Below are positions 38,710-61,421 of a stretch of 64,000 nt of DNA, one piece after another. The translations under genes and the position numbers were made by a program. Within the stretch, counting starts at the first letter, position 1. Each line of letters opens with the position of its first letter. The stretch comes from Flammeovirga kamogawensis (GTDB taxonomy: Bacteria > Bacteroidota > Bacteroidia > Cytophagales > Flammeovirgaceae), in the NCBI RefSeq assembly GCF_018736065.1, contig NZ_CP076129.1:620001-684000 (forward strand), written 5' to 3'. The notes under the pieces are model-generated. The model saw only the letters and a program-made list of their open reading frames with translations, was not told the origin of the DNA and ran no database searches.

Positions 38710-38731
38710 ATAAATTAATCGTTACTTAATA
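38710..38731 (-). promoter_or_regulatory. 11-bp-phased ATTAA half-sites before the GH99-like gene
   Basis: On the minus strand: TATTAAGTAAC (38731-38721) then GATTAATTTAT (38720-38710), a pair at exactly 11 bp. It faces the GH99-like gene, with the better array for the sulfatase on the other strand in the same gap. Confidence 0.4.
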
Positions 38732-38799
38732 GAGCTAAAAACATCAAAATTAGCTCAAAAACGCACAAATTAATAGATCTATAGTTATTTGAAATCGTG

Positions 38800-38832
38800 T
38801 ATTAATTACGTATTAATGCTTTGTTAAGCTAT
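38800..38832 (+). promoter_or_regulatory. 11-bp-phased ATTAA array before the first sulfatase
   Basis: TATTAATTACG (38800-38810), TATTAATGCTT (38811-38821) and TGTTAAGCTAT (38822-38832): three units with exact 11-bp spacing, 48 bp before the sulfatase start. Such one-turn direct repeats are the usual sites of PhoB/OmpR-type regulators. Confidence 0.55.
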
Positions 38833-38880
38833 CCAGATAGTTTTGATTGTCTACCATAATAGAACAAACCTCTTTAAGAA

Positions 38881-40317
38881 ATGAAATTATTAATTGCTGT
38901 ACTAAGTGTACTACTTTACTGTAACATTACCTTTGCTCAAAGCAAAAAGCCAAATATTATTTTATTTTTTGCAGATGACTTTGGCTACGGATCCACTAAT
39001 ATTTATGGTGCATCTAAAGATCTCATTCAAACTCCTCATATTAATCAATTGGCTGAAGAAGGAATTCATTTCACGAATGCTTTTACAACAGGTTCTGTTT
39101 GCTCTCCTACAAGGTATGGTTTGCTTACAGGAGAATATTCATGGAGAACAAGTCTTCAAAAAGGAGTTGTTAATACTAAAGACGCTTGTTTAATTGATCG
39201 TAATACAAAAACACTTCCGTCCTATCTACAAGGTTTAGGATATAATACAGCTGCAATAGGTAAATGGCATTTAGGTTATAAAAATGAAAGGTTTAAAAAT
39301 CTCTTAGGAACAATTGAAAATGGGCCGAATGACCATGGTTTTGATTACAATTTTACAGTTCCTAATAATCTAGATGATATCCATAAAATTTATATTGAGA
39401 ATAATAAAATATATGGATTACGCTCTGATAAAATAGCGGCTTATGGTGGTTCTTTTTACGGAAATCAATATGTAGGATATGACGCACCACAAAGAGTTAC
39501 TGAACAAGTAATGAATGACCTTACTAATAAATCCATTGAATGGTTATCATCTATAGATAAAAATGAGCCTTTCTTTTTGTACTTTTCTTCTGTAGCCGTA
39601 CACCACCCTATTACACCAAGTCCAGAAATGAGAGGAAAAAGTAATGCAGGTGCTTATGGCGATTTCATTCAAGATATTGATAGATGCTTAGGTGTTTTAA
39701 TTGATTATTTAGAAAAAAATGGGTTAAGAGAAAATACAATGATTATTTTTGCAAGTGATAATGGTGGAGATATTCCTAATAAGAAAAAAGTAATGCCTGA
39801 AAATTTTGCCATAAATAAAGGCTTAAAAATTAATGGTGACTATAAAGGTGACAAACATACAATTTGGGAGGGTGGTTTTAGAATTCCTATGATTATTAAT
39901 CATCCTAACAATATAAAAAAAGGGATGCAATCTGATGCTATAGTAAGCACTGTAGACTTTTATGCATTCATTGGTGAATACCTTAACAATGGGAAAGAAA
40001 TTGATAAAAATTATGCTATTGATAGCCATAGCTTTTATAAGGTAATCAAACAGCCGAATAAAAAATATACGAGAGCCCCACTTATTCACAGAGATGTAAA
40101 AGGTAGAAAAGCAGTGAGAGATGGACATTGGAAATTCATAGAGGCAAAAAATACAGCATCGAAAAATGAAAATTTACATGCTCAATTATTCAATCTTGAA
40201 GAAGATTTTAAAGAAGAAAATAATATTATTGATAAACACCCCAAAAAAGCTGCTGAATTAAAAGCTTACTTAACAGCTGCAAAAGAAGAAGGTACTAGGT
40301 TATTTATCTACAAATAA
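38881..40317 (+). CDS. Secreted sulfatase (formylglycine type), 1 of 3
   Basis: A 478-residue alkaline-phosphatase-fold sulfatase of the S1 family. Signal peptide about 1-19 (TFAQ). Metal ligands Asp32-Asp33 (FFADDFGYG), the modified cysteine in SVCSPTRYGLLTGE (C74, C-x-P-x-R, converted to formylglycine by a maturase not in this window), GKWHLGY, and the second metal site FASDNGGD are all present. C-terminal part contains AVRDGHWKFIEA and LFNLEEDFKEENNI, typical of glycan sulfatases. It would remove sulfate esters from an algal polysaccharide in the periplasm or outside. First of three sulfatase genes on this strand. Confidence 0.93.
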   Translation: MKLLIAVLSVLLYCNITFAQSKKPNIILFFADDFGYGSTNIYGASKDLIQTPHINQLAEEGIHFTNAFTTGSVCSPTRYGLLTGEYSWRTSLQKGVVNTKDACLIDRNTKTLPSYLQGLGYNTAAIGKWHLGYKNERFKNLLGTIENGPNDHGFDYNFTVPNNLDDIHKIYIENNKIYGLRSDKIAAYGGSFYGNQYVGYDAPQRVTEQVMNDLTNKSIEWLSSIDKNEPFFLYFSSVAVHHPITPSPEMRGKSNAGAYGDFIQDIDRCLGVLIDYLEKNGLRENTMIIFASDNGGDIPNKKKVMPENFAINKGLKINGDYKGDKHTIWEGGFRIPMIINHPNNIKKGMQSDAIVSTVDFYAFIGEYLNNGKEIDKNYAIDSHSFYKVIKQPNKKYTRAPLIHRDVKGRKAVRDGHWKFIEAKNTASKNENLHAQLFNLEEDFKEENNIIDKHPKKAAELKAYLTAAKEEGTRLFIYK

Positions 40318-40332
40318 GACGTTTTATATAGC

Positions 40333-40376
40333 CATTATTAATCCATTATATTCTAATTAATGCTCAATTAATGCTA
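40333..40376 (+). promoter_or_regulatory. 11-bp-phased ATTA array before the second sulfatase
   Basis: CATTATTAATC (40333-40343), CATTATATTCT (40344-40354), AATTAATGCTC (40355-40365), AATTAATGCTA (40366-40376): four consecutive 11-bp units, the last two nearly identical, ending 38 bp before the start codon. Confidence 0.5.
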
Positions 40377-40414
40377 TCAAATACATTTGAATTGAATTAC
40401 TTAACAAAGAAGAA

Positions 40415-42007
40415 ATGAAAAGAATTATAACTTTATTAGCATTACTATTTGTATCAGCAAATGTTTTTTGTTCTAATCCTCCTAAGAAGAAGAAGAAAAC
40501 AAACTTGTTATTTATTATAACAGACCAACAACAATATAAGGCCCTAGGATTGGCAGGTAATAAAGTATTAAAAACACCGAACTTAGATAGATTAGGTGAA
40601 AGTGGAGCTTACTTTGTAAATGCGTATTCTGCATGTGCTGTATGTGGGCCTGCTCGTTCTTCTATTCTAACAGGAAGAACAGTTGAAAATACTGGTGTAA
40701 ATACCAATGACAAAACCTACTACTATAAAAAAGAAAAAGTAATGCAACACCCTACTTTTGATGAAATACTTAAGAAAGAAGGGTACACTTGTGAGTATTA
40801 TGGCAAGTGGCATGCAATGGCAAACAAAGCAGATGTATATAGCAACCCTACTAAGTATGCTAAAAATGGTAAATATGCATTCGATCATGGAGGGCAAAGT
40901 TTTTTCTATCAAGATTGGTTAAAAGAAAGCTTAGAAAAAAGAGCTTTAGAAAATGGAGAACATATAGATAGATTTACAAAAAGACCTTATACTCCAGACC
41001 CTATTGATGTGTTCTTCGGACATGACTATAAAGATATAAAAGACATAAAAAAGTCTCAACCAAACTTTCATGGGAGATCAAATATTCCGAAAGAATTTAC
41101 AATGACTGCTTTTCAGGGACAGCAAACTCTTGATGCTTTAGATAGATTAAAGAACAAAACATTTAGTTTAACTTGTTCTTTCCATTATCCACATGCTCCA
41201 ATGATTGTACCTGAACCTTTCTACAGCATGTATAAAACAGAAGACATGACGCCTCCTGAAAGTATTAATGATGACATGTCTAACTCTCCTTATGTTAGGG
41301 CAAATGGACGTAAAAATCTTCCAGAATATTCTGATCCAGAAAAGATTAAATATATGATTTCTAATTATTATGGGTTGATTACTGAAGTCGACTTTTGGAT
41401 TGGTGAGATTTTAGACAAAGTTGAAGAGTTAGGATTGGCTGAAAATACTTTAATAGTTTTCACAAGTGATCATGGCGAAATGTTAGGAGCACATGGCTTA
41501 AGAGAGAAAAATGTATTCTATGAAGAATCTACTCATATTCCATTATTAATGCGTTTACCTAATGTAATCGAAGAAAATTCTACAATAGATGGTTATGTTT
41601 CTCACATAGATATCTTCCCTACTATTCTTGACTATTTAGAAGTTGATGCTCCAGACAGTGATGGTAAAAGTTTAAAAGATATGATTAATGGCGAAGAGCA
41701 TGAATATGGAGAGTATGTAGTTACAGAATGGAATTACCGCGGAGATGTTTCTCCTAATTATATGATTGTTAAAGATGGTTGGAAATTAATGGTTCCTTAT
41801 TCTGTTGAATCAAAGGTTATTAATGTATTATATAATCTTAATGATGATCCAAATGAAATGAATAACCTTTTAGGAAAAAACCCAGATCAGGCAAAATATA
41901 ATGATAAAGCTGAAGAGTTAAGAACAGCATTATTAGAATGGTTAGAAAACCATGATTCTAAATTTTATGATGGTGTAAAAAACCGAGAGTTAGTTAGAAA
42001 TATTTAA
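40415..42007 (+). CDS. Secreted sulfatase (formylglycine type), 2 of 3
   Basis: A 530-residue sulfatase. Signal peptide about 1-19; a poly-Lys stretch follows directly. The active-site Cys is in ACAVCGPARSSILTGR (C77). Metal ligands are seen as FIITDQQQY (a single Asp then Gln, in place of the usual DD, a variant found in several S1 subfamilies) and FTSDHGEMLGAHGL. Also GKWHAMA, FHYPHAPM and EWNYRGD. It lies 97 bp after the first sulfatase and only 10 bp before the third, so the latter two are translated from one message. The sequence is far from the first sulfatase, suggesting different sulfate positions. Confidence 0.92.
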   Translation: MKRIITLLALLFVSANVFCSNPPKKKKKTNLLFIITDQQQYKALGLAGNKVLKTPNLDRLGESGAYFVNAYSACAVCGPARSSILTGRTVENTGVNTNDKTYYYKKEKVMQHPTFDEILKKEGYTCEYYGKWHAMANKADVYSNPTKYAKNGKYAFDHGGQSFFYQDWLKESLEKRALENGEHIDRFTKRPYTPDPIDVFFGHDYKDIKDIKKSQPNFHGRSNIPKEFTMTAFQGQQTLDALDRLKNKTFSLTCSFHYPHAPMIVPEPFYSMYKTEDMTPPESINDDMSNSPYVRANGRKNLPEYSDPEKIKYMISNYYGLITEVDFWIGEILDKVEELGLAENTLIVFTSDHGEMLGAHGLREKNVFYEESTHIPLLMRLPNVIEENSTIDGYVSHIDIFPTILDYLEVDAPDSDGKSLKDMINGEEHEYGEYVVTEWNYRGDVSPNYMIVKDGWKLMVPYSVESKVINVLYNLNDDPNEMNNLLGKNPDQAKYNDKAEELRTALLEWLENHDSKFYDGVKNRELVRNI

Positions 42008-42017
42008 TTTTCAGATA

Positions 42018-43655
42018 ATGGGAAAACTGAAGAGATATATTCTTTCATTTTTTTTACTTTTCATTTCATCTACTTTATTAGGACAAGGTAAACCAAATAT
42101 TGTGTTCTTTTTAGTAGATGACATGAGCCCTTTTCCTATGGGAAAAAGTGAAAAAAATGAAACAAGAACATTTGGTTTTTGTGGTGAAAATCATGTCTTA
42201 ACACCCGTTATAGACAGCCTTGCCTCCAATGGGATGATTTTTACAAATGCTTATGTTTCTTCTTCTGTTTGTTCACCAAGCCGATATACTACGTTGACTG
42301 GTAGATATGCAGGAAAGTGTGAAGGAGATGAATTTATGCGTTTGCATCCTATTGGAAAAACCACAAGGGTTGAAAATAATACAGAACTTGAAAAAGATAA
42401 ATTTAATGTAGCCAAAACGCTACAAAAAAATGGTTATAGAACAGGTTTTGTAGGAAAGTCACACATTATGGAGCACCGTAAGTTGAAAGATAAAGACCTT
42501 GAAAAAAATGGTTTTAAAACGTATGCTAAAGGTGATGACATCAAGACTCCAACTGTTTCTGAAGCCATGCAATTCAATCATGATAAATGGGTAGAGATTG
42601 TGAAAGAATACGGTTTTGATTATGCTAATGCTATCTATCAGGGTAATCTCCGTGAACTTTATAATACAGATGCTAATGTACATAATCTTGAATGGACAAC
42701 AAGTGCCGCAATGAAATTTATTGATGAAAGTAAGAAAAGGGAACAACCTTTCTTTTTATACTTTTCCACCACTGTACCGCATGGGCCTCAACCTTGGTTA
42801 AAAAAAGAAGGGAAATATATACATGGTTTAGATGCTGACCCTAACATTACAAGTGCTGGGTATAAAGAAATAGATTATTCGTTTATGCCTTCTCGTAAGG
42901 AGATAAAGAAAGAAGTGGAAGCTAATAAAAATCTACGTGAAAATCAGGCTTGGATAAGATGGTTTGACAGAAGTGTTGAAGCAATTGTAAAACAACTAAA
43001 AGAAAAAGGCATTTATGAAAATACACTGATTGTAATTACGTCTGATCATGGTACATACCATTATGGAAAAACTACTCTTTATGAAAATGGTGTAAAAGTA
43101 CCTTTAATGATGCATTATCCGAAGGGTATTAAGAAAGGAAGCAAATTTAAAGGAATGGTTCAAAATATAGATTATGCACCTACTTTATTAGAATTAGCCG
43201 GTATAAAAATAAACGCAGATATAGAATTAGACGGAAGTAGTCTTCTACCTACTTTTACAGATCAAAATGTGAAAATTCATGACTATCTTTTCTTTGAGCT
43301 CGGTTTTGCTAGAGGAGTTTTAGCAGACAATTGGAAGTATATTTCGGTAAGGTATACACCTGAAATTCAAGATAAAATTGCTAAAGGAGAAAAATTTAAA
43401 GGGTTTAAAGGAGAATTGATTAATGTACCCTATTATACTAGAAATGGACATTTAGGGCATTATTCAAGTCTACATAACCCACTTTACTTTGAACCGGATC
43501 AATTGTTTAATTTAACAAGTGATCCTACAGAAAAAGAAAATATATATTCTTCTAATACTAAAAAGGCAAAAGAACTTAAGGAAATATTAAAAATGAAATT
43601 AAAAGAATTTCCCAATCGATCTTATGGAGAATTTGTAACATTAGAAAATCAATAA
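42018..43655 (+). CDS. Secreted sulfatase (formylglycine type), 3 of 3
   Basis: A 545-residue sulfatase with a signal peptide (about 1-22, LLGQ). Metal-binding FLVDDMSPFP (Asp34, Asp35), formylglycine site SSVCSPSRYTTLTGRY (C85), GKSHIMEHR in place of the more usual GKWH, FSTTVPHGP, and ITSDHGTYHYGKTTLYENG. A middle insertion (about 130-215) is larger than in the other two. It is transcriptionally linked to the second sulfatase. The KSH replacement affects a residue that normally contacts the sulfate, so its specificity may differ. Confidence 0.92.
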   Translation: MGKLKRYILSFFLLFISSTLLGQGKPNIVFFLVDDMSPFPMGKSEKNETRTFGFCGENHVLTPVIDSLASNGMIFTNAYVSSSVCSPSRYTTLTGRYAGKCEGDEFMRLHPIGKTTRVENNTELEKDKFNVAKTLQKNGYRTGFVGKSHIMEHRKLKDKDLEKNGFKTYAKGDDIKTPTVSEAMQFNHDKWVEIVKEYGFDYANAIYQGNLRELYNTDANVHNLEWTTSAAMKFIDESKKREQPFFLYFSTTVPHGPQPWLKKEGKYIHGLDADPNITSAGYKEIDYSFMPSRKEIKKEVEANKNLRENQAWIRWFDRSVEAIVKQLKEKGIYENTLIVITSDHGTYHYGKTTLYENGVKVPLMMHYPKGIKKGSKFKGMVQNIDYAPTLLELAGIKINADIELDGSSLLPTFTDQNVKIHDYLFFELGFARGVLADNWKYISVRYTPEIQDKIAKGEKFKGFKGELINVPYYTRNGHLGHYSSLHNPLYFEPDQLFNLTSDPTEKENIYSSNTKKAKELKEILKMKLKEFPNRSYGEFVTLENQ

Positions 43656-43789
43656 AACAGATAACACCTAGAATTTAGTATTCTCTTAACATCATATTCT
43701 ACTAGCTACTTATTCAAAGTGAATCATTCAAAAAGTGCAATTCTCTTATATGATAAGTATGTCTAATTATGAATAAAATAAATATTTGA

Positions 43790-43806
43790 TTAGGTAATTA
43801 ACCTAA
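43790..43806 (+). promoter_or_regulatory. Palindrome TTAGGT-N5-ACCTAA before the phosphoesterase gene
   Basis: Perfect 6-bp arms (43790-43795 and 43801-43806) about 50 bp before the start codon. Possible operator; no other copy was found in the window. Confidence 0.35.
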
Positions 43807-43856
43807 AAGATAAAATCAGCCACGCTATAATATTACTATTATTATTTAAACATAGA

Positions 43857-46958: not shown

Positions 46959-47091
46959 TAAGTATTGACTTAAAAATATTCTTTTGACTATCAAACCTCT
47001 GAGTAAGTTTTTCACAGAATTTACTTCGAGGTTTCAAAAGAAAATTCTACATACTTGACTTCAATATTAATAATATATAATCAACAGAAAT

Positions 47092-47997: not shown

Positions 47998-48002
47998 ACA
48001 AG

Positions 48003-48040
48003 AATGTACTATCTAATTAAAATTAGGTAGTACATTTTTT
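48003..48040 (+). terminator. Terminator after the membrane protein gene
   Basis: A 15-bp stem with one G-U pair (from 48003) and a run of T residues around 48034-48040. Confidence 0.85.
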
Positions 48041-48093: not shown

Positions 48094-48137
48094 TATTAAT
48101 TCTCTATTAATAGCTGATTAAGTTCAATTTAATCATC
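48094..48137 (+). promoter_or_regulatory. 11-bp-phased ATTAA array before the lipoprotein gene
   Basis: TATTAATTCTC (48094-48104), TATTAATAGCT (48105-48115), GATTAAGTTCA (48116-48126), ATTTAATCATC (48127-48137). One more TATTAAT at 48081 is off-phase (13 bp). The array is 140 bp before the start codon. Confidence 0.5.
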
Positions 48138-48276
48138 CCAACCTACATTAGCTTACAGGTATTAAGGCAATCATGAAATGAAACAAAATATACACAACAC
48201 TTAATGCCTTACTATAATTAACATAACCTTGCGATTTTTTGAATAATATCTTAAAACGCATACAACTACTTTAATT

Positions 48277-49569: not shown

Positions 49570-49585
49570 TAGGTATCATTTTAAT

Positions 49586-49689: not shown

Positions 49690-52662
49690 ATGAATTTTAA
49701 TTATCGAACAATAATCAATAGTATCATGCTTTTATTCCTGAGTTATTCGGGGGTTGCACAAACTTTTGATATCAATTACAAAACACCTACTACATTAGGA
49801 ACAATCTCTGATCCACTTATTAATGAAGCTAGTGGATTGGCAATTTCTTATAGTACGAATGATGCTTTTTGGTTACATAACGATTCTGGTGATGGACCAA
49901 ATCTTTGGTTAATTAATAAATCTGGTGATGTTCTCAATCATGGTATTGTAAAACAAAAAAATGGAAACAATGCTAGTTCTAGAGATTGGGAAGACATCGC
50001 TTCTTTTGAAAAAGATGGAAAATCATACCTAATTATCGGCAATTTTGGTGATAACCCTGTCAATAAAACAGAATACTACCTTTATATTCTTGAGGAACCT
50101 GAATATAATGCACAAAGCACTAATGATAATGCCTATGAAATCTTAAAAACAATTACTTATCAATATGAAAATGGATCTCAGAACTGTGAATCTATTGGTG
50201 TAGATGTTGAAAACGAACAAATAATATTGGTAAGTAAATCGAGTGTTGGTGGAAATAAAATTGTCTATGAATTACCTCTTTCTGTTACTTCTGATGACAT
50301 TACAACTACAGCAAAAATAATTGGTCAGTTTCCGATGGATGGTACAACGGCTATGGATATTTCTAATGACGGACAACATGCTATAGTACTTACATATAAA
50401 GATGCTTACGAATTTACAAGATATGAAGGGGCAACATGGGAAGATGCTTTTAAAAGAGCACCTCGACAAATAACTATGCCTGTAAGAAATGGTGGTGAAG
50501 CCATTGCGTATGGTAAAAATGCAATAGATTTATATTTGGTGAGAGAAGGTAAATCTTCTCCTGTTTGGCTTGTAGAAGGAGAAGTGGAACAAGGTGTCTT
50601 ATTTCAAGTAGATATGCGTCTTCAAACAGATCTATACAACAAACAGGTTTGGGTGAATATTGAAGGTCAAGCTAACCCAATATTAATGACCGATCATGAT
50701 GAAAATGGTATTTTTGCGGCTAAAGTAGATTTACCTTTAAACACTGAATATGTGTATTCATTTAGTTATCAAAATGGAGAAAGTACTGACAATGATATTG
50801 TTGTAGAAAACACAGCTTCAGCTTGTGCGAATGACAATGGTAAACGTGAAGTTTATATTGGAAAGAAAAATCTTTTACTTAAAAAAGTAATTTTTAATAA
50901 CTGTGATGAAAGCCCTAATTTTTATATCATTGATCATTGTGAATCTGTTTCAGGGTGGAAAAACGCAGGCTTATCATTAAATACTTCAGATAAGAAACAA
51001 GGTAATGCTTCAGTAGAATATTCAGGTGATCAAAATGTAGAATTTGAAAAAATCCTTGCAGAGCCAACACACGCAAACGGTACTGAAGAAGGGACAGTTT
51101 TAGAATTTTGGTATTATATATCAGATGTTTCTAAATTGGATGCTTCTAATCAAGTTGAAATTACAAGTTCAGGTAAATCTGACACAGATGAATATGGTTG
51201 GAACATTGATAAAAACAACCTTGTAAATGGATGGAACTTCATGGAATTAAAAATCAGTGAAGCCAACAAAACAGGAAATCCAGATCTTACAGCGATTAAC
51301 TACTTCAGATTATACAGAAAAAAGACTGGAGCTATCACTTCACGTATTGATGACATTCAACTTATTGGTGAAAATAACCCTAGAGAAAGTGATGCAAGTT
51401 TATCTTCAATAACCATTGATTACGGTAAATTTACTGAAGCTTTTAGTCCTGGTATTTTAACCTATACTGTGGAAATTCCTTTTGGAATTGAAACCCCTCC
51501 TACTGTTTCAGCAACTGCAACACAACTTGGAAAAGCAGTAATGACTGTTCAACAAGCGGCTACAATGACTGAAACGGCTACAATCGATGTAACTTCAGAA
51601 GACGGTACAAATCAACGTACATATACTATAGCTTTTGTATCATCTGATGGTAAATATTTAGATCCTTGTGAAGATAAAACTGGTTGGAATCCTGGTGCTA
51701 TTATTTTAAATAGCGAGGATAATAAACAAGGTGAATATTGTTTTGAAAATACTACTAGTGACAATTTAGAGTTTTCTAAAAATTTCTCTACTCCACATAA
51801 TGCTAATGGAACTCCAAAAGACGTCACATTATCATTTTGGTACTATGTTTCTGATGTTTCTCTTTTTGATGAAGCAAATCAAGTTGAAATTACAAGTTCA
51901 GGCAAAGCAGATGAAGATGAATACAGTTGGAGTATTACTAAAAGTAATCTAAATACAGGATGGAATCACATTCAATTAAATGTTGGTGAAGCAGCAATAA
52001 CAGGTAACCCTGATTTGGAAGCGATTAACTTCTTCAGAATTTACAGAAAGAAAACAGGAAGTGTAACTACTCGTATTGATGCTATCAACCTTTATGGGGA
52101 AAGTGAAGAGGATAAAGAGGACGAGGAAAATGAAGAGACAAAATCTAACGATGCTAATTTAGGTAGCCTAAATATAAATAACGGTACCTTGAGTCCCTCA
52201 TTTTCTTCAGACATATTGGATTACACAGTAGAAGTACCGGAAGGAGCAACAAACATTCCCGAAGTTACTGCAACTGCATCAGACCAAGAAAATGCTTCTA
52301 TTCTTATTACACAAGCAAATTCTTTAGAAGATAAGACTACAATAGAAGTAACTGCAGAAGATGGAACAACTAAAACTTATACCATTACTTTTTTAGTAAA
52401 TATACCTACATCTATTTCGGTAAATAAAGCTGATCTAGGTCTTTATATTTTTCCAAATCCAATCATTGATGTACTGACAATTCGTAGTCAATCTGATTTA
52501 CAAAAAGTAGAAATTTATACAATTGGTGGTCATAAAAAATATTCAATAAATACATTATCAACTGTTGTTAAAATCAATATCCAACATTGGGAGAAAGGTA
52601 TTTATATTTTAAAAATCACAACCAAAGAAGGGAAAATACTAACTCAAAAGGTTATAAAGTGA
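49690..52662 (+). CDS. Large T9SS-secreted protein with propeller-like, CBM-like and cadherin-like domains
   Basis: A 990-residue protein. Signal peptide about 1-23 (SGVAQ). Residues about 25-330 look like a beta-propeller (DAFWLHNDSGDGPNLW, YLIIGNFGDNP, TTAMDISNDGQHAIVL). Then two copies of a 145-residue CBM-like jelly roll (about 405-550 and 650-795), sharing VSKLDASNQVEITSSGK / VSLFDEANQVEITSSGK and YFRLYRKKTGAITSRID / FFRIYRKKTGSVTTRID. Two cadherin-like domains (about 555-640 and 812-895), an acidic linker, and a T9SS tail (IFPNPIIDVL, ending KILTQKVIK) follow. It is likely a glycan-binding surface protein; no catalytic motif was found. Confidence 0.85.
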   Translation: MNFNYRTIINSIMLLFLSYSGVAQTFDINYKTPTTLGTISDPLINEASGLAISYSTNDAFWLHNDSGDGPNLWLINKSGDVLNHGIVKQKNGNNASSRDWEDIASFEKDGKSYLIIGNFGDNPVNKTEYYLYILEEPEYNAQSTNDNAYEILKTITYQYENGSQNCESIGVDVENEQIILVSKSSVGGNKIVYELPLSVTSDDITTTAKIIGQFPMDGTTAMDISNDGQHAIVLTYKDAYEFTRYEGATWEDAFKRAPRQITMPVRNGGEAIAYGKNAIDLYLVREGKSSPVWLVEGEVEQGVLFQVDMRLQTDLYNKQVWVNIEGQANPILMTDHDENGIFAAKVDLPLNTEYVYSFSYQNGESTDNDIVVENTASACANDNGKREVYIGKKNLLLKKVIFNNCDESPNFYIIDHCESVSGWKNAGLSLNTSDKKQGNASVEYSGDQNVEFEKILAEPTHANGTEEGTVLEFWYYISDVSKLDASNQVEITSSGKSDTDEYGWNIDKNNLVNGWNFMELKISEANKTGNPDLTAINYFRLYRKKTGAITSRIDDIQLIGENNPRESDASLSSITIDYGKFTEAFSPGILTYTVEIPFGIETPPTVSATATQLGKAVMTVQQAATMTETATIDVTSEDGTNQRTYTIAFVSSDGKYLDPCEDKTGWNPGAIILNSEDNKQGEYCFENTTSDNLEFSKNFSTPHNANGTPKDVTLSFWYYVSDVSLFDEANQVEITSSGKADEDEYSWSITKSNLNTGWNHIQLNVGEAAITGNPDLEAINFFRIYRKKTGSVTTRIDAINLYGESEEDKEDEENEETKSNDANLGSLNINNGTLSPSFSSDILDYTVEVPEGATNIPEVTATASDQENASILITQANSLEDKTTIEVTAEDGTTKTYTITFLVNIPTSISVNKADLGLYIFPNPIIDVLTIRSQSDLQKVEIYTIGGHKKYSINTLSTVVKINIQHWEKGIYILKITTKEGKILTQKVIK

Positions 52663-52685
52663 TTTTAATATGGAATTTTAAAAAT

Positions 52686-52723
52686 AGAAACCCCACGATT
52701 CATTAATGTGTTGTGGGGTTTCT
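52686..52723 (+). terminator. Terminator after the 990-residue protein gene
   Basis: AGAAACCCCAC (52686-52696) pairs with GTGGGGTTTCT (52713-52723). The T-run is weak, but the GC-rich stem is strong. Confidence 0.75.
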
Positions 52724-52805
52724 ATTTATTTTAAAAGTGTAAAACTTATTCAAAATACTTGTCCTTTACACCTAAAGCCATAATTCGAATTGAAAAGGTG
52801 AAAAT

Positions 52806-53240: not shown

Positions 53241-53445
53241 AACATTTTATTTTTTCTCTAAATGTAAAGCTATTTATTAATAATATGGAATACCTATTAA
53301 TTCATGAGTTTCGAGTTCCCTTTTACTCTTCTGTATAAAATTCAAAAAATACTTAGTTCAACTTCCCTTTAACCTTACTCTTGAGTATCCAATGTCTTAT
53401 TACTTCAATACGATCTCAAAATCCTAGCGTTTTTAATTAAAACAA

Positions 53446-53480
53446 AACCCCACAGAATATAATCCTGTAGGGCTTTTTTC
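53446..53480 (-). terminator. Terminator of the GH71/99-like gene
   Basis: CCCCACAG pairs with CTGTAGGG (with a G-U or mismatch), flanked by A-run and T-run. It lies about 50 bp after the stop at 53529. Confidence 0.75.
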
Positions 53481-53528
53481 AGTAGAGTTCTGATAGAATT
53501 TATCACTATTAAAAATAGATAAAATGCT

Positions 53529-55376
53529 CTAATCAATCTCTAAAACGTTATAGGTGTTATGTAAATTATAAAGGTCATAATTATTAATTGAAGAGGAGAC
53601 TTCAAGTAATTTTTCTTCTTTCAATTCTTTCCATACCTCATAATGAAATTCTGGTAATAACTTCTTCACTTTCTTTTCATAGCGCTCATTATTTTTAGAC
53701 TCATTACTTCGGTATGCCTTATTATTAGTTTCATTAAGAATTAGATTAGTAAGATGAGAATGCATTCTCTCTTCTTCTATTTTTAACCATTGATTTTTTT
53801 CCACCGGATCAAGCATAAACCTTATATTAAAATAATTTACCTCTTGAGTTGCTAGGGTATTTACCAAATCTTTAATAATACGTTTATCAAAACTAGATTG
53901 ATAGATTACATTAGGTTGATTTCTATTGTCTACTTCTCGAATTTCCCTCGTAGTCGTTAGATTTGCAATTTCAACACCCTCTGTTACTAATGAAATATTT
54001 AAATTCCCTTTTTTCCATGGTATAGTTGTTATCTGTAAACCACTACCAATAGCTAACTTTCCAGTACCTTCTATTATAACCTTAGAAGGCTTTTTTGTAT
54101 AAGTTATTACTTCGATTGAATCTTGAGAATATTGAGTATCACCAATTGATTTTCTAACTTTATAATCAAGAAAATTGCTATCTACTTTTTGTTTATTTCT
54201 ATAAGCTACAAAAACTCCCTGATCTACCTCTTCATTTTTCCATATCTCAACCAAAGTATTTAATAAAGGACCTAATCCAAATCCATGGTTATATTCTTGT
54301 CTAAATTGAGAGCCTTCAATGTATGTATTCCAAGAATTCAAAATCAAAATAGAAGCATTAAAATTGTTTGCTTGTTCAAACCCTAACCTTAACCCTTTCG
54401 ATAATGATAAATCATCATATTCTTTGTAACATTCATTGATCTTTAAATCTTCTTTTATAACAAACGCTCTTGGTTTCTTCTTCTTACTGTCTATTTCAAC
54501 ATAATAACTAGAAACATGATCATGGTAAATAGAATGAACAAATGGTTTATTTGTAAGTTTTAAGTTGTTATTAAATCTTTCAATAAGTTTTTCTTCTCGC
54601 ATATGAAATGCTTCCATCTTTACTGTATAAAACTTTTTACTAGCTTCAATAACTTCCTTTTTCCTACCTGGCCAAATACATGTGTATATACAATTATAGT
54701 CTTCTATAGTAGGTTGCAGTATTGCATCAATTCTGTTAAATAAAAGTGAAATATCGAATATCATATCATCTGATTTTTCCATTTTTTTCCGTTCCTCTTT
54801 CGTCAGTAAACTTTTTACTTTTGAAAGCATTATCACTTTTTTATCATTTTCAATATGCCAATTTTTGGAGAAGCTATACTTGTTATTGGTAAAGTGTTTT
54901 AAAACTCCTGAAGCATCTGCAATGGCTTCATCAAGATTATTATTAGGTTCAAATTTTAAAGCAATATTAAAATAGAATGGATATCCCTTCTCTTCTGCAA
55001 CTTCAAAATACGCTTCTATAATTTCATTATAACGTTTGTATAAATTATTATTTTTAGAGATTACATAAATAAATGAAAAGCCATCAATACCCATTTTCAT
55101 AGCACTTTGTATCTCAAAATCTACCGCTTCTTTTAACGACATTTGTTTTGCCAAATCTGATACTAAAGGATAGAATAAAGCATTATTGTCTAACCATGTT
55201 TTTTCACTATCATAAATATAACTATATGCATTAATTTTGGGTAAAACTCCTTTTTCAGGTGAATTAATAAATAATATATTATTTTGAGCAAAAACCTTTT
55301 TAATATTAGCAGCACTAGTTGTTAGTGCAAAGAAAAGTACGGGTAAGATTAAAATTATTGTTTTTATAGTTTTCAT
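53529..55376 (-). CDS. Secreted GH71/GH99-like TIM-barrel protein
   Basis: A 615-residue protein with a signal peptide (about 1-23, TSAA). The N-terminal 370 residues resemble the GH71/99-like barrel: INAYSYIYDSEKTWLDN, FEIQSAMKMGIDGFSFIYV, YPFYFNIALKFEP and ILILNSWNTYIEGSQF, where the Trp-Asn and Glu are plausible active-site residues. The C-terminal 240 residues are of unknown type (a beta-sandwich-like part, then a charged helical part). No T9SS tail, so it probably stays periplasmic or is released. It begins 88 bp after the giant beta-helix gene on the same strand, with a hairpin between. Confidence 0.65.
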   Translation of the reverse strand: MKTIKTIILILPVLFFALTTSAANIKKVFAQNNILFINSPEKGVLPKINAYSYIYDSEKTWLDNNALFYPLVSDLAKQMSLKEAVDFEIQSAMKMGIDGFSFIYVISKNNNLYKRYNEIIEAYFEVAEEKGYPFYFNIALKFEPNNNLDEAIADASGVLKHFTNNKYSFSKNWHIENDKKVIMLSKVKSLLTKEERKKMEKSDDMIFDISLLFNRIDAILQPTIEDYNCIYTCIWPGRKKEVIEASKKFYTVKMEAFHMREEKLIERFNNNLKLTNKPFVHSIYHDHVSSYYVEIDSKKKKPRAFVIKEDLKINECYKEYDDLSLSKGLRLGFEQANNFNASILILNSWNTYIEGSQFRQEYNHGFGLGPLLNTLVEIWKNEEVDQGVFVAYRNKQKVDSNFLDYKVRKSIGDTQYSQDSIEVITYTKKPSKVIIEGTGKLAIGSGLQITTIPWKKGNLNISLVTEGVEIANLTTTREIREVDNRNQPNVIYQSSFDKRIIKDLVNTLATQEVNYFNIRFMLDPVEKNQWLKIEEERMHSHLTNLILNETNNKAYRSNESKNNERYEKKVKKLLPEFHYEVWKELKEEKLLEVSSSINNYDLYNLHNTYNVLEID

Positions 55377-55417
55377 GAGTAAACATTTAAGTAGTTATAT
55401 GAGAAGAAGGGTAGTAA

Positions 55418-55453
55418 AACTCACCATTAAGATTTAACGCCTAATGGTGAGTT
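55418..55453 (-). terminator. Hairpin after the three-module gene
   Basis: A 12-bp perfect stem (55418-55429 with 55442-55453); on the minus strand it runs into TTTTA. It separates the giant gene from the GH71/99-like gene and may allow read-through. Confidence 0.75.
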
Positions 55454-55463
55454 CATATATTTT

Positions 55464-58400
55464 TTAGTTAAACACAATTCTTTTTGTTAGAACATTTTCG
55501 TTAGAAACTACTCTTAAAATATAAATACCTGTTTTCAATTTCAATTTAAAATCTGATCCTTCAACTTCAGTATTGTAAACTTTTCTTCCTGATGTATCAT
55601 ATACTTCTACAGCATATTGATTTAGACCAACATTAATTGTCATTTCATAAGAAGATGGATTTGGATAAGCATCAAACTGGATTTGATTTAAATCTATAGA
55701 TGAAATCGGATCCTCTTCTTCTGTTAATGTATTAAAGAATATTGCTTCTGATTCTGCTGAAACTTCACCAATCTCATTTTTTGTAAATACAGTAACACTA
55801 TACTCTCTGTTACTATCCAAGTTAGTTAGGTCTATGAAAGTATCTGTAGTTTCCATCCACTCTCCTTGAAGGCTAACCACAAAAGATAATCCCGTTATGT
55901 CAGCGATATCCCAACTTACTCTTGCTGAATTTGAAGTAATATTAAGTACTTCTATATTCGTAGGAACTAGTGGAACACGCACACCATCAGTTTCTTGTTC
56001 TACAGTAACAATTTCAGATTCGTTACCTAAATAATCTACTGCAAGGAGCTTAAATGAGTAATTTGTCAACTCTTCCAAATCAGTAAAAGTATGTTCATTT
56101 AGAACTGTTGTTATAGGCTCCTCCTCACCAATACTAATTAGATAATGTGAAACGGCTACATCATCTGTAGAAGCATCCCATTTTAATGTAATTGAATTTA
56201 CTCTTACTGATGGGAATGAAACATTTGAAGGTGCAGTTGGTGCTGCATTATCATTTTCTAATTCGTCTGCATTCACTTTTCCATTTAATTGAAATGCACC
56301 ACAATCAATTCTGTCATTTTGAACAACTCTTAGATTATTTAATTGATCAGTTACAAAACTAGTCCCTTCTCTTTTTGTGAAATATTCTGCTTTAGCATAT
56401 CCTACAGCAAGTGAATTGTCTGCAAAGCTTACTACACCGTCTGCATTAATTTCGTTGAGAGATAAAGAAGGCGCACCTGTTATTGTAGCTCCTACTAATA
56501 TACCCGCTTTTGTTCTACCATCCCCTGTCGAAGGTTCATTATTATCTGATTCTAATACCGCACTAATAATAGATGAATTAATTACTGATTTCACCCCTAC
56601 CTTAAAAGATATATCAGAATTCGACTCGGTATCTTGTCCGTAATTATACTTATTATTAAAAATAATTGAGTTATTAATCAAGACCTCAAATGCTGTGTTT
56701 ACAACTCTAATTCCTCCTGCATTACCAGAGTTATTTATTGTGTAATTATTAGCAACTGTCGTATTTTCTAATGTTAAAGTACCTTTGTTTTCTTCGTCTT
56801 TTCCAGCAATAAGAAAGGCACCACCTGCATTGGCCGTTTCATTGTTATAGATTGTAGAGTTCTGGATAAAGATATGGGCATCATTTGTTACACCTTCAAT
56901 AATCATTGCTCCACCATGACCTAAAGAAACGTTGTCTTTAAATAAAGTTTGGTAAATATTTACGTTACATACACCTTGACCAGAATTCACTAAAATGGCA
57001 CCACCGTTTTTATTGACTACGGCAGTTTTGTTACCTATGAATGAAGATGAAATGATGTTTAATGTACCTGACTGTATTGCTAAAGCACCTCCTCCAAGAG
57101 CAGCAGTGTTGTTTTCAAATGTACAGTTCTTGATATCTATTGTACCTGCAGTTTTTACAAGAATTGCACCTCCAAGCTGAGCCACTTTATTTCCTTCAAA
57201 AGGTACTTCACCATTACCATTTTTAAAGCTGATGTTCTCTATCTTTAAATAAGCATCCTCCTCGGTATCGTTATGGATAAAGAATTTTGTAAGGTTGCCA
57301 CCGTCTAATGTTGCATTATTTTGACCTACAATTTCTAAACTCTTCGAAATACCAAAGAAAGTAGTGTGAGTAACCGTTCCATCAATTATAATTTTATCAC
57401 CATTAGCTGCTAGTGAGTGAGCTTTTACTAAATCGAGTACAGCATTTTCTAATGATAAACCATCATTTTCGTTATTACCTGTACTACTTACATAAAGCGT
57501 TTTCTGTGTATCGACAATTTCTTCAAGTGTTTTGAAAGCTATTGCCTCAGTTAAAGATGATTTTTCATCAATTTCATTTTTAGATAATACAGCTACTTCA
57601 TAATCTGTGTTGGCTGTAAGACCTTCTAACATATATGAAAACTCAGATGTTTCGTATATCTCATCACCTACCTTAACTTCAAATGATAAACCTTCAACTT
57701 CAGGGTTATCCCATGTTACGGTTGCACTAGTTTGAGAAATTTCTGAAATACTTACATTTGAAGGTACTACTGGCGTTGGGAATGATGTAGGTTTCTCCAA
57801 TGTAGTCACTGATTCACTCATCACATTAGAACTATTTCCTGCAACATCCACTGCAATTACTTTAACTAAATAAGCTGTTTCTGCCGTTAGTTCTTCAAAT
57901 TTATAGTTTGTACCAAATACATCAATTGTTTCTTCATCATTTAGTTGAACTTGATAATGAGCAACACCTACGTTATCAGTGGATGCATCCCATGATACTT
58001 CGAAAGAATTATACATCACTTCTGCAAAAACAATATTTGCTACATCTGAAGGAAATGACACATCGTTCGTTACATCTTCTACGTTAAATGCACCATTAAT
58101 TTGATAGGCTCCTATATCAATAGCACCTTCTACAACATTTCTTACGTTATCTAATTGATCTACTAAATACGTTCCATGTGCTGGTTTAGCAGATAGTAAT
58201 GCTGCAGAACCAAAGTTGACAGCAATTGCATCACTTGCAAAAGGAACAACATTGTTTTCAGTAATATCTTCTACAACTAAATCTGGTATTTCTGATGCAA
58301 CAGTTCCTGATACTTTTCCATTTAAATAATTTGCTCCATTTAAGGATGCAATATTACCATTAACGATAGCACCAATGATTGAATTGTTTAGAGTGAAATT

Positions 58401-61190
58401 AGCACTTCCATTGGTTGATAAATCTGACATCACTTCAGTTTCTGAACCATAGTTTGACTTATTATCAAAAATCAATGAATTATTAATAGTAACAACTGCT
58501 AGATCGTTAATAGAACGAATAGCACCACTATTACCTGAGGTAGCTAAAGTACTATTTTTTGCCATGGTTACGTTTACAAGGTCTAAAGTTCCTTCTCCCT
58601 TATTTCCAAGGAAAATTACACCCCCGGCAGCATTTGTTTGGTTTCCGTAGAATGTTGAGTTAAGAATATCAATATCAAATGAATGACCATTCGCTTCGTT
58701 TGTTTCTACATTTAACACACCTCCATGAGTTTGTGATACATTGTTTTTGAAAACACTTTGATCAATTGTTAAACTAACAGAATTTGTAGTTGATGAAAGA
58801 TGAATAACACCTCCGTTTGGTTTTGACTCATCAATAATGTTACTGTTATAATTGAAAACTGATTTGCTAATTACTATCTCACCATTTTGGATAGTAATCA
58901 CACCTCCATTAAGTGAAGAATTATTGTTTTCAAAAGTACATCCTGAAATAGTCACCATACCAGGTGAGTTAAGTGTCATTGCACCACCTGTTTCAACAGA
59001 TGCTCCGTTATATTTACCATTTGCATTTTTGAAATGGATATTCTCAAGAATTAAATAACTGCCTTCTTCTTCCTTATTGAAATTAAAAAACTTTAATGCA
59101 TTTTTAGCATCTAGAGTCGCATTGTTAATTCCTCTAATCGTTAAGTTTTTCTGGATACCAATTGATGTAGAATATTCAATTTCACCATCAATTACAATTA
59201 CATCACTATCTAATGATTTGTTGTAAGCGCTTAAAAATGTAGAAAGAGAAGTCTCTGCTGTTAAACCATCATTATCATTACTTCCGGCAGCACTAACATA
59301 ATATGTTTGAGATACATGAGATGATGCACTAAATACTAGAGGTTCACTAGCTTCTGAAAATTCATCTGTAGCATTTTTTGATTTAACTGTAACTGAATAC
59401 TCAGTACCTGGAGTTAAACCTTCTAGCTTATAAGTTAAAGCAGATACTTCTTCTTCTTTACCATCATAAAAGACTACATAACTTAAACCACTAGCTACAC
59501 TAGACTCCCAAGATACTGTTGCAGATGTTGCTGTAACGCTCGATACCTGAAGATTTGTAGGTACCACTGGAGTAATCGCTCCTGCAGTAGTTTGTTTTAC
59601 TTCAACAATGTTAGATGTATTACCTTTATAATCTACTGCTTTTACTTTTACTGTATATTCAGTATTTAAAGTTAACCCACTAAAAGATGTTGATAATGCA
59701 CTTGTAGTTATTGGCGTTGTATCATCTAATTGTATTTCATAATAACCAAACATAACGGCATCTGTAGATGCTTCCCATGAAACATCAAAACTAGTTTCAC
59801 CTATATTAGAAAATGTAATATTACTTGGATCAGTTGGAGCAACATTATCGTTTACTACTTCTTCAACAGTTGCTACACCATCTAATTGGTAAGCACCCGC
59901 ATCAAATTTACCTTCAACTACTCTTCTTACATTTCCTAATTGATCAGTAAGGTAAGCGTGGTCATCACTTCCTGTTAATAAAGAAGCATCTGCGAAGTTG
60001 ATTGGAAGTGCGTCTGAAGCAAAAGAAATAACACCGTCTGCTTCATTAAACGTAAGAGCTAATTCAGGTACATTTTCATTTACAGCAGAAGATACAGATC
60101 CATATATAGATATTTCATCAATTGAAGTAGCATCATTATCTGCATCTTCAATAATTAAGACATCATTTTTAATGATTCCCCCAAATATAGATGCCTTGAT
60201 TGTTATACTTGCTGCGTCATTTATTGATAGATCTGAAATTGCATTTCCATTTAACTGTGTTGTATTTCCATAAACAATACTATTTTCAATTAAATAATTA
60301 ACTGTTGAAGCATTTAGGTACAGCCCACCACAATTACCTGCATTACCTACAGTGGTATTACCATTTATAGTAACATTTTCAATTTCAATAGTTCCAGCAC
60401 CTGAGCTTATGTCACATAATGCTCCTCCAGATTTAGTAGATGAGTTATTATAAAATGTAGAATTTGAAATTTTTAAACTTTTGTCAAAAATTATATTTTC
60501 AGAGTCTACATCTTTAAATAGTGTTGCAACAGCACCCCCATTACCTCCGATTGAGTTATTCTTAAATAAACAATCAGACACAGTAATCTCAACTGGTAAA
60601 GTTGTTTCTGCATAAATAGCTCCACCATTAAAAACTCCTTCTATAGTATTTTCTTCAAATACGCATGATTGGAAATTTATAGTACCTTGCTGAATGGCAA
60701 ATACACCACCATGTTTTGGTGATGAGTTTGATTTAAAAATACAATTTTTAAAAGTAGCTACACCTGTTGTGTTAATGAGAAACCCTCCTCCAATTTGAGC
60801 AGCTCCATTAAAATGTCCATTTCCATTTATAAATGTAATATTTTCAACATTTAAGTATGCATCAACATCTTTATGAGTATAATTAAAGAATTTATTTTGT
60901 GAGTCATCTTCTAATTTAGTATCAATTATGGCATTATTTATCCCAATAATCGACAGTCTCCTTCCAATACCAAAAGCAGTTGGATGATAAATTACACCAG
61001 CAGTCCCATCAACATATATAATGTCATCATGTGCTGACGTAATAAATGCTTTATTTAAATCAGCATACGCATCTTCTAAAGATGTCCCTCCATTTTCATT
61101 ACTTCCATCTGCAGATACGTATATATCTTTCGCAAATGAAAATTGGGCAAAGAGTATAAATAAGTAAAAGAGTATATTTTTTTTGTTCAT
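55464..61190 (-). CDS. Giant T9SS protein: three beta-helix plus FN3-pair modules
   Basis: A 1,908-residue protein. Signal peptide about 1-20 (FSFAK). The body is one module repeated three times: a right-handed beta-helix of about 400 residues that opens with YVSADGSNENGG / YYVSAAGSNDNDG / LYVSSTGNNENDG, followed by two FN3 domains (SFDVSWEASTDAVMFGYY / SFEVSWDASTDNVGVAHY / SITLKWDASTDDVAVSHY). Modules begin at about residues 22, 630 and 1228. Each helix ends in a GAYQLDG / GAYQINGA / GAFQLNGK line. The last 80 residues are a T9SS tail (AYPNPSSYE, ending VLTKRIVFN). It looks like a surface adhesin or glycan-binding fibre; no catalytic residues were seen. Confidence 0.9.
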   Translation of the reverse strand: MNKKNILFYLFILFAQFSFAKDIYVSADGSNENGGTSLEDAYADLNKAFITSAHDDIIYVDGTAGVIYHPTAFGIGRRLSIIGINNAIIDTKLEDDSQNKFFNYTHKDVDAYLNVENITFINGNGHFNGAAQIGGGFLINTTGVATFKNCIFKSNSSPKHGGVFAIQQGTINFQSCVFEENTIEGVFNGGAIYAETTLPVEITVSDCLFKNNSIGGNGGAVATLFKDVDSENIIFDKSLKISNSTFYNNSSTKSGGALCDISSGAGTIEIENVTINGNTTVGNAGNCGGLYLNASTVNYLIENSIVYGNTTQLNGNAISDLSINDAASITIKASIFGGIIKNDVLIIEDADNDATSIDEISIYGSVSSAVNENVPELALTFNEADGVISFASDALPINFADASLLTGSDDHAYLTDQLGNVRRVVEGKFDAGAYQLDGVATVEEVVNDNVAPTDPSNITFSNIGETSFDVSWEASTDAVMFGYYEIQLDDTTPITTSALSTSFSGLTLNTEYTVKVKAVDYKGNTSNIVEVKQTTAGAITPVVPTNLQVSSVTATSATVSWESSVASGLSYVVFYDGKEEEVSALTYKLEGLTPGTEYSVTVKSKNATDEFSEASEPLVFSASSHVSQTYYVSAAGSNDNDGLTAETSLSTFLSAYNKSLDSDVIVIDGEIEYSTSIGIQKNLTIRGINNATLDAKNALKFFNFNKEEEGSYLILENIHFKNANGKYNGASVETGGAMTLNSPGMVTISGCTFENNNSSLNGGVITIQNGEIVISKSVFNYNSNIIDESKPNGGVIHLSSTTNSVSLTIDQSVFKNNVSQTHGGVLNVETNEANGHSFDIDILNSTFYGNQTNAAGGVIFLGNKGEGTLDLVNVTMAKNSTLATSGNSGAIRSINDLAVVTINNSLIFDNKSNYGSETEVMSDLSTNGSANFTLNNSIIGAIVNGNIASLNGANYLNGKVSGTVASEIPDLVVEDITENNVVPFASDAIAVNFGSAALLSAKPAHGTYLVDQLDNVRNVVEGAIDIGAYQINGAFNVEDVTNDVSFPSDVANIVFAEVMYNSFEVSWDASTDNVGVAHYQVQLNDEETIDVFGTNYKFEELTAETAYLVKVIAVDVAGNSSNVMSESVTTLEKPTSFPTPVVPSNVSISEISQTSATVTWDNPEVEGLSFEVKVGDEIYETSEFSYMLEGLTANTDYEVAVLSKNEIDEKSSLTEAIAFKTLEEIVDTQKTLYVSSTGNNENDGLSLENAVLDLVKAHSLAANGDKIIIDGTVTHTTFFGISKSLEIVGQNNATLDGGNLTKFFIHNDTEEDAYLKIENISFKNGNGEVPFEGNKVAQLGGAILVKTAGTIDIKNCTFENNTAALGGGALAIQSGTLNIISSSFIGNKTAVVNKNGGAILVNSGQGVCNVNIYQTLFKDNVSLGHGGAMIIEGVTNDAHIFIQNSTIYNNETANAGGAFLIAGKDEENKGTLTLENTTVANNYTINNSGNAGGIRVVNTAFEVLINNSIIFNNKYNYGQDTESNSDISFKVGVKSVINSSIISAVLESDNNEPSTGDGRTKAGILVGATITGAPSLSLNEINADGVVSFADNSLAVGYAKAEYFTKREGTSFVTDQLNNLRVVQNDRIDCGAFQLNGKVNADELENDNAAPTAPSNVSFPSVRVNSITLKWDASTDDVAVSHYLISIGEEEPITTVLNEHTFTDLEELTNYSFKLLAVDYLGNESEIVTVEQETDGVRVPLVPTNIEVLNITSNSARVSWDIADITGLSFVVSLQGEWMETTDTFIDLTNLDSNREYSVTVFTKNEIGEVSAESEAIFFNTLTEEEDPISSIDLNQIQFDAYPNPSSYEMTINVGLNQYAVEVYDTSGRKVYNTEVEGSDFKLKLKTGIYILRVVSNENVLTKRIVFN

Positions 61191-61377
61191 AGCTTACTAA
61201 ATAGTAAAGTTATAGTATTCATTTCATTTTGGTATTAATACCCGATGAGTAAAAAATTGAGTATTAAGTAATTATTGTTGCTTTTAAGCACTAGAAAACA
61301 GATTCTTCATCATTTCAGCTTCTTCAATTAATAATATTTAAAATTTGATAAAGTGAAATACATAGATTTTGATAACA

Positions 61378-61421
61378 GAATTCTAATAGTGGCTTAATTA
61401 AGCATTAATCAACACTTAATA
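61378..61421 (-). promoter_or_regulatory. 11-bp-phased ATTAA array before the three-module gene
   Basis: On the minus strand: TATTAAGTGTT (61421-61411), GATTAATGCTT (61410-61400), AATTAAGCCAC (61399-61389), TATTAGAATTC (61388-61378): four in-phase 11-bp units, 190 bp before the start codon. Confidence 0.55.

Follow-up and report, generated by a model that had tools for sequence, protein, structure and literature searches.

Arrays of 11-bp-stepped ATTAAT units at the promoters of a Flammeovirga polysaccharide utilization locus, and a candidate membrane-anchored SARP-like regulator

The DNA studied here is a 64,000-nucleotide stretch of Flammeovirga kamogawensis, positions 620,001 to 684,000 of contig NZ_CP076129.1 (C2:620001-684000; hereafter the window). 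Plain positions are counted from its first letter, and positions prefixed C2 are those of the contig. The genome comprises 6,968,008 bp in four contigs with a GC content of 31%. The window carries genes of a polysaccharide utilization locus (PUL), and the promoters of this PUL bear arrays of short ATTAAT-like units. Probably, these arrays are read by a protein of 887 aa with a C-terminal domain like that of Streptomyces antibiotic regulatory proteins (SARPs). An earlier note on this DNA had described arrays upstream of the genes starting at 38616, 38881, 40415, 48277 and 61190, and arrays are present at all five places where it had put them. The genes and sites concerned, including those exported by the type IX secretion system (T9SS), are as follows.

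37342..38616, minus strand: GH99-like gene (PF16317), array-preceded, ATG at 38616
38686..38741, minus strand: array and -7 element TAAATTTG (38693-38686), promoter of the GH99-like gene 37342-38616
38790..38845, plus strand: array and -7 element TAGTTTTG (38838-38845), promoter of the sulfatase gene 38881-40317
38881..40317, plus strand: sulfatase gene (PF00884, by Pfam), array-preceded
40334..40389, plus strand: array and -7 element TACATTTG (40382-40389), promoter of the sulfatase genes 40415-42007 and 42018-43655
40415..42007, plus strand: sulfatase gene (PF00884, by Pfam), array-preceded
42018..43655, plus strand: sulfatase gene (PF00884, by Pfam), directly downstream of 40415-42007
48095..48151, plus strand: array of three exact units and -7-like element TACATTAG (48144-48151), promoter of 48277-49569 and 49690-52662
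48277..49569, plus strand: gene of an Ig-like protein (Big_7, by Pfam), array-preceded; a lipoprotein by eye
49690..52662, plus strand: gene of a T9SS-sorted protein (Por_Secre_tail, cadherin-like), downstream of 48277-49569
53529..55376, minus strand: gene downstream of 55464-61190
55464..61190, minus strand: gene of a large fn3 protein with a T9SS sorting domain, array-preceded
61353..61420, minus strand: array and weak -7-like element TATTTCAC (by eye), promoter of 55464-61190 with 53529-55376 downstream
61481..64000, minus strand: window part of an H-lectin/T9SS gene of 1892 aa (whole gene C2:681481-687159), preceded by an array of its own outside the window (about C2:687205-687270)
C2:687319-689982, minus strand: candidate regulator gene, 887 aa, 3.3 kb past the window end

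The units had been described as N-ATTAA(T/G)-N4 at exact 11-bp steps. The register is right, but only some of the units are exact. The minus-strand array at 38730 has two exact ATTAA units in 11-bp register followed by ATTTG, and the plus-strand array at 38801 has two followed by GTTAA. Two exact units at 40356 and 40367 on the plus strand are preceded by ATTAT at 40334 and 40345. Three exact units are found in the array at 48095 (plus), where TTTAA follows and the -7-like element is 1 bp off the main register, and in that at 61420 (minus), where ATTAG and GTTAT follow. The units were also said to share the strand of the gene; ATTAAT is palindromic and its core gives no strand, but the -7 element does. 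Alignments of orthologous promoters, from part of which conservation was read, show the arrays at 38686..38741 and 40334..40389 as footprints, and the array at 61353..61420 is a footprint common to a paralogous promoter of the same genome and two promoters of congeners.

The 11-bp step is specific. Within the window, ATTAA pairs occur 10 times at a lag of 11 bp and 9 times at 33 bp (3 x 11), compared with 0-6 times at other lags from 5 to 32, and exact triples occur twice at lag 11 and at no other lag from 6 to 30. We then considered the 220 kb around and including the window, 12% of which is intergenic. Allowing at most one mismatch, there are 19 triples at lag 11 against 2, 0, 2 and 0 at lags 9, 10, 12 and 13, and all 19 are intergenic. 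A matrix of the unit, applied at step 11, gave 39 matches above 12 bits, the first sites on which it was built included, and 38 of these are intergenic. Other steps (8-10 and 12-14) yielded 2-7 matches, and three shuffles 1-4. The same matrix found no site above 12 bits in C2:580-658.7 kb, which includes the window left of 38.7 kb, and this agrees with the earlier statement that the promoters it named nrf, agu and creD lack arrays.

The arrays are also clustered. The exact triple ATTAA-N6-ATTAA-N6-ATTAA occurs three times in the whole genome, at C2:668, 681 and 687 kb, within 20 kb. With at most one mismatch there are 37 triples, of which 19 fall within the 72 kb of C2:658.8-730.8 kb, and the remaining 99% of the genome has 18 (binomial 3e-28, or 5e-12 when 9 of 27 distinct spots are counted). 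Ten of the 19 lie beyond the window (687-731 kb), outside the DNA behind the motif of the earlier note. Since a backward control pattern has 25 matches genome-wide, the total of 37 is raised only modestly, and it is the clustering and the intergenic location that carry the signal. The arrays are real and not products of chance.

When the 13 array-bearing promoters of the PUL are lined up, a common layout appears. Each array has two to five units of about 7 bp with the consensus ATTAAT/G, the last often TTAT, in 11-bp steps. TAnnTTTG is the consensus of the Bacteroidota -7 element, and this sequence or a near match follows the last unit, beginning 15-16 bp from the first base of that unit, that is, after the 7-bp unit and 8-9 bp more. 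Exact TAnnTTTG, whose background frequency is 0.001 per position, is found in six of the 13 arrays, in all six at phase 4 modulo 11 and 15 bp past a unit start. For a held-out test, an array-only matrix that omits the -7 part was scanned over 379 kb of four congeners at a threshold of 11. It gave 47 array matches, in which palindromic sites are counted per strand, orthologues are non-independent and chance matches are included. Exact TAnnTTTG was found 11 times at offsets 34-69, each time at phase 4, and among 36 elements with one mismatch 22 were at phases 4-5. One promoter of this kind is duplicated: near-identical copies 7 kb apart (L005:11773-11828 and L005:18907-18962) precede a sulfatase fusion gene and an unrelated lipoprotein-like gene.

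The arrays are conserved in the genus. Nine Flammeovirga genomes were compared (G000, the own genome, to G008; G005 is F. aprica). R1, a model of the 56-bp layout that uses sequence alone, was trained on 12 of the 13 promoters, leaving out the near-duplicate 718831. In the own genome its best 15 of 15 matches lie in the PUL, where training sites match by construction, and the first match outside has an E-value of 0.088. Among 57 other genomes scanned, matches at E<=1 numbered 11, 13, 16 and 16 in G003, G004, G005 and G006, 3, 5, 4 and 3 in G001, G002, G007 and G008, and 0-9 in the remaining 49. Among the matches listed, clusters of arrays on a single contig occur only in G003 to G006. These clusters are orthologous PULs, in which arrays precede the orthologous SusC, sulfatase, GH99 and fn3 genes, and in the promoter alignments the ATTAA blocks and the -7 element are kept while the flanks have diverged. 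Six loci whose SusC genes are more distant (L177-L182) gave no array scoring above 10.8. Two kinds of R1 match outside the PUL were set aside. One recurs in G001, G004, G005 and G006 and is a conserved stretch without array upstream of an 843-aa gene, which we take to be ClpC-like; some others, among the matches listed, are single and without array-like context.

The PUL is present twice in G003, in diverged copies (L106-L109 on C11 and L103-L105 on C6) that each have their own regulator and arrays. In G006 the lectin gene is separated from an array by an IS110-like transposase gene (by eye; L110:16958-17968).

The earlier note had found no regulator gene in the window, and the best candidate lies outside it, at C2:687319-689982. 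Its product, 887 aa long, starts with a signal peptide (by eye) and carries Kelch repeats (Pfam); a single membrane helix at about 560-584 is followed by a cytoplasmic C-terminus, and domain searches found no receiver, kinase or AraC domain in the protein. The gene is kept in the mapped PULs: the own one, the two of G003, and those of G004 (via L175), G005 and G006. In a full-length alignment search, orthologues (bits 1268-1503) were found once each in G000, G004, G005 and G006 and twice in G003. Hence all five genomes with arrays have an orthologue, the one with two PULs has two, and the four others have none; the search found no homologue in G002 and G007 and, in G001 and G008, nothing closer than distant paralogues (bits 320-335). 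G005 has three distant paralogues besides its orthologue. Outside the genus, the Sphingobacteriales metagenome-assembled genome 44-61 (G058; loci L176 and L190) carries a homologue, 26% identical, divergent to a run of genes from GH99, SusC and SusD to sulfatase and GH92 that is headed by an array. This array scores 20.0, compared with at most 12.7 in 30 shuffles of its 80 kb.

The C-terminal part of the candidate is homologous to SARPs. We aligned a profile of 20 such C-terminal domains with a profile of eight annotated AfsR/SARP/BTAD proteins by hhalign. The probability was 96.5 and the score 69.8 over 216 columns, which run across the winged helix and the BTAD part, and 30 column-shuffled controls scored at most 19.6. 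The profile of the five orthologues alone gave a probability of 86.2, and a comparison with five AraC domains of the own genome gave 0.3. Trans_reg_C (PF00486) and BTAD (PF03704) were not listed for the candidate at E<=10, a search in which the HMMER filters drop most weak matches. A reference SARP was matched by both families, so that the candidate stands outside the family as Pfam draws it, and the combination of an OmpR-type domain and BTAD in one chain is seen in it by sensitive profile comparison only. AlphaFold models made with three sequences show their elements in a fitting succession (strands, three or four helices, two strands, helices), but are weak (pLDDT 50-58).

The geometry of the arrays points in the same direction. 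According to PMC10936776, SARP sites are direct repeats 11 or 22 bp apart, the 3' one standing 8 bp from the -10 element, and PMC5930380 gives the sites of PimR as three 7-bp repeats with 4-bp spacers. A 7-bp unit and an 8-bp gap make the 15 bp found here, and thus the arrays fit the SARP promoter rule.

Taking these results together, we estimate at about 80% the probability that the arrays serve as activator sites for a regulon confined to the PUL and are bound by the SARP-like domain of the 887-aa protein. The earlier note had proposed one regulator of the OmpR type reading tandem sites one helical turn apart. One such reader is most likely, but its identity as a PhoB/OmpR response regulator is not supported. 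The surface and polysaccharide regulon proposed there is most likely right as well, as one PUL and not as a general surface regulon or scattered exported genes.

A plausible course of events is as follows. Extracellular and surface enzymes would free sulfated oligosaccharides, which SusC/D would bring in, and the periplasmic lectin/Kelch part may bind an oligosaccharide released from the glycan. The signal would cross via the single membrane helix, upon which cytoplasmic SARP-like domains would align on the array, so that monomers, each an OmpR-type winged helix and a BTAD-like helical domain, occupy the units side by side. The most downstream monomer would hold RNA polymerase with the primary sigma factor, as may be compared with AfsR in Streptomyces, and a good -33 element would be unneeded. 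The expected outcome is joint induction of SusC/SusD, sulfatases, GH92, GH99-like and T9SS-exported proteins.

We also lean, with less confidence, towards the idea that the protein represents an undescribed class of glycan-sensing regulator in Bacteroidota. In this class a Kelch propeller would be joined through one membrane helix to a SARP-like domain, which would read arrays of ATTAAT units at 11-bp steps, with the promoter geometry of the Streptomyces antibiotic activators, and drive whole PULs, here one for sulfated alpha-mannan. In a survey of Bacteroides regulators (PMC3878776), 16 HTCS (hybrid two-component systems), 4 SusR-like regulators and 11 of other families are counted, and none is called SARP-like there. 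Our search of the open-access literature found no paper tying SARP/BTAD, or Kelch with BTAD, to Bacteroidetes or polysaccharide utilization, and one on Bacteroidetes promoters with TAnnTTTG and direct repeats found nothing relevant. If the idea is true, SARP activation, with a row of monomers ending 8 bp before the -10 element, works with the primary sigma factor of Bacteroidota, and a periplasmic sugar signal passes the membrane without phosphorylation. The SARP promoter architecture would then extend beyond Actinomycetota, and PUL regulators would gain, in a membrane-anchored sensor of the SARP type, a class whose DNA code can be read, as an array predicts the promoters of the regulon by a clear rule: 11-bp steps, an 8-bp gap and TAnnTTTG.

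Several points weigh against assigning the arrays to this protein and this layout. Co-occurrence with arrays is common to the whole PUL; it counts against core regulators and does not single out the candidate, and it rests on nine related genomes. The PUL has other conserved genes without assigned family, such as 53529-55376, and the 887-aa gene was picked because a DNA-binding-type domain is recognizable in it. No array precedes the regulator gene in five mapped PULs, so that autoregulation is not seen, and near the paralogous regulators that stand next to other SusC/SusD pairs no convincing 11-bp array was found. In four of the own promoters the -7 element is 16 and not 15 bp away, and in two of these four it matches poorly. 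The 56-bp matrix is non-specific alone: in 30 shuffles of 75 kb with the own composition it reached 20 or more twice, with a maximum of 22.6 and a median best of 11.9, and consequently the threshold of 11 used in mapping the congeners and in the held-out test admits chance matches. R1 puts the array of G058 last of 13 matches there (E 9.4). As to the domain, the C-terminus compared with OmpR domains alone had a probability of only 43.5, whereas the positive control of SARP against OmpR had 93.2. Pfam recognizes only the Kelch part and NCBIfam nothing. The AlphaFold models are poor (pLDDT 50 and 58), and for the model of the winged helix no SARP or OmpR fold was among the PDB matches listed; the fold search was of no use, its best Z being 3.4 and its best Foldseek E 0.72, and a sequence search of the PDB found no relative of the C-terminus but three chance-level matches (best E 0.62).

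Among the alternatives, an HTCS of the AraC type or another transcription factor encoded elsewhere and acting in trans fares best, although we consider it unlikely. The genome has 72 AraC-type matches, 15 of them in frames of 1284-1435 aa, one HTCS lies inside the PUL of G004 and G006 and another next to that of G058, and such regulators are common in PULs according to PMC3878776. However, the Bacteroides motifs predicted there are two sites averaging 21 bp apart and not 11-bp units, and no AraC-type match lies in C2:580-800 kb. The HTCS inside the PUL of G004 and G006, the only one compared, was rejected as reader of the arrays on account of its distribution: G005 and G001 have close counterparts (65-66%), but G000 and G003, which do have arrays, offer no match better than 29-33%. 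The genes themselves are HTCS-like by eye (L111:2203-6120 in the G004/G006 PUL and L190:5904-9887 directly behind the regulator of G058), and in both cases two regulator types share one glycan locus. As other candidates outside the window, LytTR and NtrC-like genes at C2:752-761 kb (by eye) were set aside, since they are the best match of no gene in the PULs of the congeners.

Less likely still is a core response regulator of the PhoB/OmpR family that was recruited to the PUL. Tandem sites at 11 bp are typical of OmpR-family regulators, and the genome has four PF00486 genes. Four such genes with the same score tiers are, however, present in all nine Flammeovirga genomes and array clusters in five, so that their presence does not follow the arrays and they were rejected as owners. 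In addition, the best R1 match outside the PUL is at background level, so that a core regulator would have no clear core targets with this motif.

We give even less weight to the possibility that the same regulator represses, its bound units blocking the promoter until glycan is present. The sites do overlap the -33 region, where repressors bind too. A near-fixed distance such as the 15-16 bp between the last unit and the -7 element is, however, a requirement of SARP-type activators, and repressor operators tolerate more variable positions. SARPs are activators according to PMC10936776. That the arrays are chance matches in AT-rich DNA, as the earlier note had allowed and as the GC content and the modest genome-wide excess might suggest, has next to no probability, since it is contradicted by their clustering in 1% of the genome, their lag-11 specificity, their intergenic place, their phase-locking to the -7 element and their conservation in congeners.

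The preferred regulator, the 887-aa protein, resembles several known systems in part. With the SARPs of Streptomyces (AfsR, DnrI, PimR and others) it shares the alignment across the OmpR-type winged helix and BTAD and, by the rule given in PMC10936776, direct repeats of 11 bp with the 3' repeat 8 bp from a -10 type element. It differs in that its SARP-like domain is C-terminal behind a membrane helix and not N-terminal, in its periplasmic Kelch sensor where AfsR has NOD/TPR, in going unmatched by Pfam BTAD or Trans_reg_C, and in its targets, which have the -7 element TAnnTTTG, the AT-rich unit ATTAAT and a PUL instead of antibiotic genes. ToxR and CadC are single-pass, one-component membrane regulators with a periplasmic sensor and an N-terminal winged helix but no BTAD. 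By description, the candidate is like them in its single membrane pass, periplasmic sensor and OmpR-type winged helix, in reversed order. PhoB/OmpR response regulators have a receiver domain, which was not found in the candidate. Many HTCS have a propeller sensor, and HTCS of Bacteroides likewise are membrane sensor proteins controlling PULs. Their motif step is about 21 bp in PMC3878776, whereas the candidate, in which neither kinase nor AraC domain was found, goes with a step of 11 bp. SusR-like regulators are also one-component, with periplasmic glycan sensing at SusC/SusD loci, but their motifs in the same paper consist of two sites at a distance of 67 or 77 bp and not of several units at 11 bp.

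The C-terminal family is rare and is not a PUL regulator only. Among 395 genomes sampled from the phylum, 15 gave matches, 11 clear (bits >=138) and four weak (bits <=41), and 11 of 15 strong matches are in frames of 843-890 aa. We examined the neighborhoods of ten strong matches or pairs in nine genomes and of the Flammeovirga paralogues. By eye, SusC/SusD-like genes adjoin the regulator in G001, G008, G005 (C405) and G431 and lie two genes off in G045, and the other strong-match neighborhoods examined have none beside it. Arrays of the ATTAAT type were seen only with the close orthologues and in G058. In G001, G008 and G005, distant paralogues lie divergently to a SusC/SusD pair (L204-L209). 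The intergenic DNA there shows conserved blocks, in which CCATTTGTA recurs, exactly or nearly so, 12 bp further (by eye), and has no 11-bp array. At L248:10001-10330 a homologue stands by SusC/SusD and a GH92-like gene, and upstream TTAA recurs at steps of 11, 9, 12 and 12 (by eye); these units are possibly a related but looser site. Two more paralogues lie in a second GH92-like/sulfatase locus of G005 (L210-L211, G005:C398:1-40000; by eye), which has no clear array.

The array-preceded genes of the PUL encode sulfatases, GH99-like proteins, SusC/SusD followed by GH99-like and GH92 proteins, and T9SS-exported Ig, fn3 and lectin proteins. Another is a sulfatase of 1267 aa with a weak GH99-like match (E 0.00015, below the Pfam cut-off) and a sorting tail. 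Polaribacter degraders of diatom C6-sulfated alpha-1,3-mannan have a T9SS sulfatase-GH195 fusion, GH92 and sulfatases, as PMC13063451 reports. Because the enzyme sets are alike, the substrate here is probably sulfated alpha-mannan, presumably of algae. The two PULs share a T9SS sulfatase fused to a GH99-related domain, GH92 and S1 sulfatases, with the reservation that in Flammeovirga the fused part is known only as a GH99-like match; the main text of that paper on Polaribacter and Ochrovirga does not contain the word "regulator" (PMC13063451). A candidate regulator and a promoter grammar would thereby be linked to a PUL of the type for diatom sulfated mannan, a globally relevant marine glycan.

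Two further groups of genes belong to the surroundings. One is the following pair.

35923-37161 and 35204-35926, minus strand: redox pair downstream of the GH99-like gene

It consists of a 412-aa FMN_bind/Fer4_5 membrane protein (NosR/RnfG-like) and a 240-aa flavin-reductase-like protein (35204-37161), and it stays near PUL genes in G003, G004, G005 and G006. The other is inside the own PUL (L006:793-5412) and consists of PLD-like, AAA and DUF2357/PDDEXK_7 genes, which by eye are restriction- or defense-like.

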